Shown here piece by piece: positions 36,247 through 46,210 of a stretch of 64,000 bases of DNA. Source of the DNA: Burkholderiales bacterium (GTDB lineage: Bacteria > Pseudomonadota > Gammaproteobacteria > Burkholderiales > SG8-41). The stretch is from contig JAUXMZ010000062.1 in the NCBI GenBank assembly GCA_030683105.1, forward strand, positions 42,202 through 106,201, read 5' to 3'. The notes under the pieces are model-generated. The model saw only the letters and a list, made by a program, of their open reading frames with translations, was not told the DNA's origin and did no database searches. The position numbers were made by a program, and so were the translations under genes. Positions within the stretch are counted from its first letter, which is position 1, and each line of letters begins with the position of its first letter.

Positions 36247-36345
36247 GGAGGCGAGCCTTACCCCCGGCACTTGCATAAAATAGCTGTGGCTGCTTCCTTC
36301 CGGACCTGACCAGGTTCACTACCGTGCAATGCGGGGAGGCCCGCC
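36247..36345 (-). ncRNA. ffs: Bacterial small SRP RNA (4.5S)
   Basis: Minus strand contains the conserved SRP core GGTCAGGTCCGGAAGGAAGCAGCC; complementary ends GGCGGGCC.../...GGCTCGCC. Confidence 0.93.
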
Positions 36346-45610: not shown

Positions 45611-45663
45611 TCAGGCGGCATGCATTGGACCACAGACCGGCTGTGGTAGAATGCGCCCCTTCC

Positions 45664-45977
45664 GGAGAGGTGGATGAGTGGTTTAAGTCGCACGCCTGGA
45701 CAATACGCGGCAGCTTATTGCGGCGCAGACTAACCTTCAGACAACACGCGGAGCTTGTTGCGGTGAAGACTGACCTTTAGGTCATGTCGGAGCCAATATG
45801 TCGAAGCCAAAGCGTGTGTACGGTGTAAGCCGTACCGAGGGTTCGACAACCGAACATCCGGTGAATGTTCGGTTGGACGCCGGGACGTATTGAGGCCCGG
45901 CGGTCCCGAGCCGGAGTGTGGCGAGGGATGCGTGGATCGCAGAGGCAATGCGAGACGCGCACAATCCCGCCCTCTCT
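45664..45977 (+). pseudogene. Second tRNA-Ser(GGA) copy interrupted in the anticodon loop and the T loop
   Basis: 45664-45700 and 45810-45846 match the intact tRNA 46038-46129 over 74/74 nt; 45964-45976 resembles its 3' end with changes and no CCA; separated by 109- and 117-nt inserts. Confidence 0.85.
45701..45781. repeat. Two-copy imperfect tandem repeat (about 41 bp) inside insert 1
   Basis: CAATACGCGGCAGCTTATTGCGGCGCAGACTAACCTTCAGA / CAACACGCGGAGCTTGTTGCGGTGAAGACTGACCTTTAGG. Confidence 0.85.
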
Positions 45978-46037: not shown

Positions 46038-46129
<92 letters not shown>

Positions 46130-46132
46130 AAT

Positions 46133-46159
46133 AAAAGAGCCCATCTTGGGCTCTTTTTA
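46133..46159 (+). terminator. Rho-independent terminator after tRNA-Ser
   Basis: AAAAGAGCCC-ATCT-TGGGCTCTTTTTAT. Confidence 0.88.
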
Positions 46160-46210
46160 TTTGGCGGTATGGGGAGGACTCATTCGAACCCGCTGGTTCT
46201 TCGGATTTTG

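Follow-up and report, generated by a model that had tools for sequence, protein, structure and literature searches.

A tRNA-linked repeat core in the T loop of a disrupted tRNA-Ser(GGA) duplicate in a Burkholderiales genome

Immediately upstream of an intact tRNA-Ser(GGA) gene, a second copy of this gene is interrupted precisely in its anticodon loop and in its T loop, and every base of its first 74 positions is identical to the sister gene. Such an arrangement raises the question of whether a bacterium contains a tRNA with two short introns or whether the interruptions have some other origin. The locus lies in the window, the whole stretch of 64,000 nucleotides (nt) analyzed here from the draft genome G000. 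Our analyses indicate that the T-loop insert is the structured core of a repeat family that is associated with stable-RNA genes across a large share of the Gammaproteobacteria, and that the copy itself most likely has no function as a tRNA.

The disrupted copy and its anticodon-loop insert

The intact gene occupies positions 46038 to 46129 on the plus strand, as do all features of the locus, and is recognized both by ARAGORN and by Rfam model RF00005 (56.2 bits). In the disrupted copy, nt 1 to 37 (45664-45700) match 46038-46074 at 37 of 37 positions, and nt 38 to 74 (45810-45846), which end with the GGTTCGA of the T loop, match the intact gene at 37 of 37, so that the earlier note was base-exact on both segments. 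Its inserts of 109 and 117 nt and its 1-nt A ambiguity at the first junction likewise agree with the sequence. The copy ends with ATCCCGCCCTCTCT (45964-45977), which is followed by AAAC and, when compared with the intact gene and with relatives, contains a T-stem mismatch and no CCA. The T-stem strand of this piece reads CCCGC, as in the tRNA-Ser of relatives, versus CCCTC in the window's intact gene, and its 13 nt of T-stem and acceptor strand equal those of the relatives, with the last nucleotide and the CCA lost.

Upstream of the disrupted copy, the promoter-like sequence TTGGAC-16-TAGAAT (45625-45652) is in place as previously described, and by synteny (locus L200) it is the counterpart of the tRNA promoter region at the single-copy locus of the same-genus genome G002; a consensus promoter scan called nothing above threshold at 45625-45652. 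The motif GGTARAATGCGC was found to be common to both copies, again as noted before. An Rfam scan of the window passed only the intact tRNA and a bacterial small SRP RNA gene (36247-36345, minus strand; RF00169, 81.8 bits).

The insert in the anticodon loop (insert 1, 45701-45809) is built of hairpin units of about 40 nt. A search of the locus against its own genome returned two disjoint sets of matches for the two inserts. Those of insert 1 are intergenic and without linkage to tRNA genes, with about 91% identity over 94 nt to copies on contigs C64, C59, C33 and others, and its consensus matches eight places in the genome when the window locus is counted. A tRNA with an interrupted T loop in a related genome (G023) lacks insert 1, its additional insert being located in the variable arm. 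From its sequence matches, insert 1 appears to be an ordinary dispersed repeat of the lineage, unrelated to insert 2. A repeat related to insert 1 (GTTTCAGTGAAGRCTAAC...) also occurs in two relatives between GGTTCGA, or a remnant of it, and the core of a tRNA-linked repeat (L012, 1435-1500; L048, before 1501).

Since both inserts are dispersed repeats of their own genome and the T-loop insert recurs elsewhere, including at the corresponding tRNA in other genomes (L010, L088, L190), a chance origin of the arrangement is ruled out.

Fold and identity of the T-loop insert

The T-loop insert (insert 2, 45847-45963) interrupts the T loop between its TTCGA and its ATCCC and was identified by blastn, by alignment and by a covariance model (R1), which scores 159.8 bits over 45840-45976. 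Within its own genome, it matches three other places, every one at a tRNA gene: on contig C44 a core lies 3' of tRNA-Ser(GCT), and on contig C48 cores flank tRNA-Gly(CCC) on both sides, one of them interrupting the T loop of a duplicated tRNA that precedes the intact gene.

The core folds into four hairpins. In an alignment of 75 copies, all 11 base pairs of P1 (45847-45875) and all 9 of P2 (45878-45902) covary, P3 (45903-45929) appears in the consensus fold with a tandem-GA-like internal loop (GA.AG), and 8 of the 10 pairs of P4 (45930-45960) show double changes. A tandem GA motif has been reported for RtT (PMC7657543). Overall, 94% of cells are paired, versus 34 to 47% in controls with slid partners, and 35 of 39 pairs have changed on both sides, a result that none of 500 shuffles equaled; this alignment was fitted to the structure, and its counts therefore lean towards it. 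A consensus of seven copies that was not fitted to the structure yields four hairpins, with 13 compensated pairs, and the covariation signal recurs in the gammaproteobacterial copies alone. The core of insert 2 is thus a structurally conserved four-hairpin family, and the earlier view that the T-loop insert is something other than random filler has been borne out.

The identity of this family emerged from E. coli. tRNA-linked repeats (TLRs) occur in the operons of tRNA and rRNA and finish with 18 to 19 bp that are identical to the 3' end of the RNA gene preceding them; E. coli K-12 has 22 of them, they were stated in 2021 to be without known function, and the conservation search for one of them, rrB, reached only the Enterobacteriales (PMC8144298). 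They are traced there to work of 1978 in E. coli (Egan and Landy 1978 and Rudd 1999, as cited in PMC8144298). A covariance model (R3) that was built from 23 gammaproteobacterial copies only, with E. coli left out, was run on selected E. coli loci. It recovered TLRs at four of them (rrB, proK, argQ/argZ/argV and tyrTV), reaching 50 bits (1.3e-12) at the rrB of rrnB and matching all four RtT units at E <= 1e-7, and it gave no match at the TLR-less loci argX-hisR-leuT-proM, leuQPV, proL and glyW-cysT-leuZ. The architecture of tyrTV with its RtT repeats also matches that of the family units. Because R3 recovers the E. coli TLRs and the tyrTV architecture is alike, insert 2 can be assigned, by sequence and fold, to the TLRs, the family that includes RtT and rrB of E. 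coli.

With RtT RNA (RF00391; rttR of the tyrT operon), the units share the left motif GGATGAGAA.C, GGTTCGAC, the CCCGAAGGG hairpin, and AATCC plus the tRNA 3' end on the right. RF00391 itself does not recognize the betaproteobacterial copies: none of 399 genomes of the order exceeded its cutoff, and nothing in the window matched at E <= 5. L160 and L161, two sub-threshold RtT matches in Burkholderiales, are not close to any tRNA and were taken as chance. The RrA, RrB and RrF small RNAs, which the rrn operons of E. coli encode between T1 and T2 (PMC8144298), share the core, but they are inserted at 5S rRNA rather than at tRNA, and binding of CsrA and Hfq is known only there (PMC8144298). Of all E. 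coli matches, the tRNA-trained model scores highest on the repeat 3' of the 5S rRNA of rrnB (L193, 1333-1425), which implies that the insertion rule may be a distance of about 18 nt from the RNA 3' end and not the T-loop sequence.

Like the E. coli TLRs, the units described here are located at tRNA or rRNA 3' ends, carry 18 to 19 bp of the upstream RNA 3' end, occur in tandem and follow the order gene, T1, repeat, T2. They differ in having beta- and non-enteric gammaproteobacterial hosts, tmRNA targets and other P1 and P2 sequences. The window core also differs in position, as it interrupts the T loop of a duplicated tRNA rather than lying downstream of an intact gene and behind a terminator, the usual location of a TLR, where a truncated unit is found instead (46130-46199). 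This flank, which the earlier note overlooked, is the stump of a second unit: a terminator-like hairpin (46130-46161) occupies the position of terminator 1 of other units and is followed by an inverted tRNA-Ser 3' end and GGTTC, the left end of the truncated repeat (46162-46199). The inverted 3' end aligns with a score of 30, which none of 1,000 shuffles attained. The window core is a positional variant of a TLR, and the homology of the core holds. The BRE repeat of Bordetella, also betaproteobacterial (PMC3110155), was considered as well, and no link was established.

Unit architecture, distribution and spread

The usual order of a unit is RNA gene, terminator, inverted RNA 3' end, GGTTCGAC, core, (C)ACA and copied RNA 3' end, frequently followed by a second terminator. 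The copied 3' end runs from the T loop onward and is 18 nt long. This right flank is gene specific, being the 3' end of the adjacent RNA, with 18 of 18 nt identical in 23 of 74 copies, and the inverted tRNA 3' end was detected in 33 of 42 spacers at P <= 0.05. The core usually starts 55 to 93 nt 3' of the RNA gene. Adjacent genes include those for tRNA-Ser (GGA, GCT, CGA and TGA), Gly, Glu, Ala, Phe, Tyr, Arg and Gln, as well as tmRNA. Tandem arrays occur at four loci (L027, L028, L059, L088), and the tmRNA of G258 has three tandem units spaced 200 nt apart. At L067, L086, L059 and L088, the 3' half of the tRNA or tmRNA, the terminator and the inverted 3' half make up one long near-palindrome, which matches what a double fold-back copying event would leave.

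With model R1, matches were obtained in 26 of the 74 family genomes and in 57 of the 399 genomes of the order. A further model (R2) matches 15 of 369 genomes of the class, and R3 matches 96 of 321 at E <= 1e-4; R1 and R2 connect the window core with the copies on which R3 was trained. Nearly all of 22 additional R3 loci that were inspected lie 3' of a tRNA. Exact-pattern matches outside the Pseudomonadota are not adjacent to tRNA genes (one has a tRNA 511 nt away) and look like chance. Collections of plasmid and phage DNA yielded no match for the queries tried.

In a weakly resolved tree of 75 cores (114 columns), the copies of a host lineage cluster together even when they come from different tRNAs; eight copies of one family, for instance, which lie at genes for tRNA-Gly, tRNA-Glu and three tRNA-Ser, fall in a single clade of ten rows (100/95). 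Within one genus, tRNA-Phe has a TLR in G141 that is absent there from G258 and G288, and at tmRNA, G258 and G288 have this TLR core and G141 has a unit whose core is a different one. As judged from these sequences, the pattern is compatible with units having moved from one RNA gene to another, or with concerted evolution combined with loss. The G141 unit (L217) and a similar one in G451 (L218) are TLR-like, lie 3' of tmRNA and have a different core (..GACACAAAACATGAACTGCTTCATGTTTTGCG..), the L217 unit terminating in a copied tmRNA 3' end. There may be several classes of TLR core.

In E. coli, transcription that reads through terminator 1 produces rrB, which is processed and short-lived; Hfq and CsrA bind it, and its phenotypes are modest (PMC8144298). 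At the window locus, the TLR core may be transcribed along with the tRNA. As a family, TLRs may be regulators, processing by-products or selfish elements.

Interruption of a T loop by the core is not confined to the window. In G023 (L010) and at tRNA-Gly of G000 and G163 (L050), a tRNA duplicate upstream of the intact gene carries a core within its T loop, and the layout at tRNA-Ser(GGA) is repeated in G769 (L088) and at L190; remnants of such copies are located upstream of tRNA-Ser at L014, L016 and L204. The question of whether relatives share the inserts thus has a divided answer: insert 2 is conserved, insert 1 is not shared with relatives, and the syntenic site of G002, 3' of the same symporter gene, carries just one tRNA-Ser, without interruption, indicating that either the window lineage gained the copy or G002 lost it. 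At the G769 locus, the T-loop core is nearly equal to the last core of the array 3' of the intact tRNA, which suggests, from sequence similarity, that it was joined by recombination between GGTTCGA repeats. The two Gly copies of G000 differ, unlike the near-identical G769 pair.

Origin of the disrupted copy

A functional split tRNA, in which excision of two short introns, one from the anticodon loop and one from the T loop, would produce a second tRNA-Ser(GGA), is the reading that the precise junctions, the 74/74 identity and the promoter-like sequence upstream bring to mind. tRNA introns usually sit just after the anticodon, where insert 1 begins. However, joining the segments does not give a complete acceptor stem, discriminator and CCA: the acceptor end and CCA are missing, A50 faces G64, and all T-loop copies examined have a degraded acceptor end or CCA, rendering a working spliced tRNA very unlikely. 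The two inserts, moreover, come from unrelated repeat families, of which only the T-loop insert is common to relatives. The one is a dispersed intergenic repeat absent from the G023 T-loop copy, and the other normally lies outside tRNA genes, behind a terminator; an intact gene is adjacent. Group I introns of bacterial tRNA genes also interrupt loops, but they are single, much longer and contain a catalytic core, and a search for them returned no match up to E = 5. We regard a two-intron tRNA, which the earlier note had entertained, as highly improbable. Its default, a decayed tRNA pseudogene, proved right. The plainest form of that default, a decaying duplicate with only unrelated filler DNA, would accommodate the degraded 3' end and the lineage-specific insert 1, but it is refuted for insert 2, whose fold and position are conserved across the class, and we give it almost no weight. 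Misassembly deserves equally little credence: the assembly is a draft in 78 contigs, but the layout recurs in independently assembled genomes (L010, L050, L088, L190), with remnants at L014 and L016.

Integrases that target tRNA genes leave copied tRNA 3' ends and regenerated tRNAs, and the units could accordingly be scars of the attachment sites of integrative elements; in that case the core would correspond to an arm region for the integrase, and the copied tRNA 3' sequence would be the displaced end. The copied 18-nt ends and the spread over tRNA genes within lineages are as such a process would leave them. Against it, compensatory changes demand a folded single-stranded RNA or DNA and not duplex arm sites, the units are about 200 bp long without any gene or integrase, plasmid and phage DNA gave no match for the queries tried, and the E. 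coli core is found at 5S rRNA; altogether, this origin seems unlikely. Of interest in this context are tRNA-Glu cores in G321 (L078-L079; C25, 277000-297500), which are separated by stretches of 13 kb and 5 kb that encode universal stress proteins, a P-type ATPase, a Na/H exchanger and a Band 7 protein. Within this 19-kb region, no integrase was recognized among ten open reading frames scanned, and its interpretation as an island was set aside.

The best explanation of the whole, to which we assign a probability of roughly 0.9, is that 45664-45977 is a nonfunctional tRNA-Ser(GGA) duplicate with a TLR core joined into its T loop. The locus would formerly have been an array of the E. coli tyrT-TLR-tyrV-TLR type. 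GGTTCGA occurs as direct repeats, one at the tRNA T loop and one starting each unit, and a deletion between them could have joined the 5' part of the tRNA to a core; alternatively, the core could have inserted straight into the T loop. A dispersed genomic repeat would subsequently have entered the anticodon loop and the acceptor end decayed, with gene conversion by the intact gene keeping the first 74 nt identical. The core would most likely be transcribed with the tRNA, here from the tRNA promoter and elsewhere by read-through of terminator 1, on the model of rrB, and might then be released as a short-lived RNA by tRNA maturation enzymes; splicing to the tRNA is not expected. Within a lineage, cores would spread between tRNA genes by a mechanism that copies the target 3' end. 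A broader and more speculative proposal, which we hold only tentatively and consider rather less probable than its negation, is that TLRs are class-wide, miniature, mobile structured RNAs whose insertion, templated by RNA or a single strand, takes place about 18 nt from the 3' end of a tRNA, tmRNA or 5S rRNA gene, duplicates and inverts that end of the target and restores a working gene; copies in T loops would then be direct products of insertion or excision.

Relative to the literature searched and to Rfam, the reach of the TLRs, their consensus structure and the T-loop layout are new here. The models detect TLRs over a large part of the Gammaproteobacteria, Burkholderiales included, both at tmRNA and at numerous tRNAs. 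Together with the consensus structure and the presence or absence of copies in congeneric species, they make TLR origin, mobility and RNA function directly testable. TLRs also explain some apparently interrupted bacterial tRNA genes, which annotation could misread as containing introns.

The 74/74 identity to the intact gene has a candidate explanation in the T-stem. In six other genomes (G002, G023, G018, G012, G005 and G076), the T-stem of tRNA-Ser(GGA) is GCGGG/CCCGC; in the window, the intact gene has GAGGG/CCCTC, and the disrupted copy combines the new GAGGG with the old CCCGC. The simplest reading of these sequences is that the first 74 nt were homogenized with the intact gene and the piece beyond the insert was not, which would account for the A50-G64 mismatch. 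The promoter-like sequence and the 74/74 identity would also fit an RNA that still serves as a carrier of the TLR.
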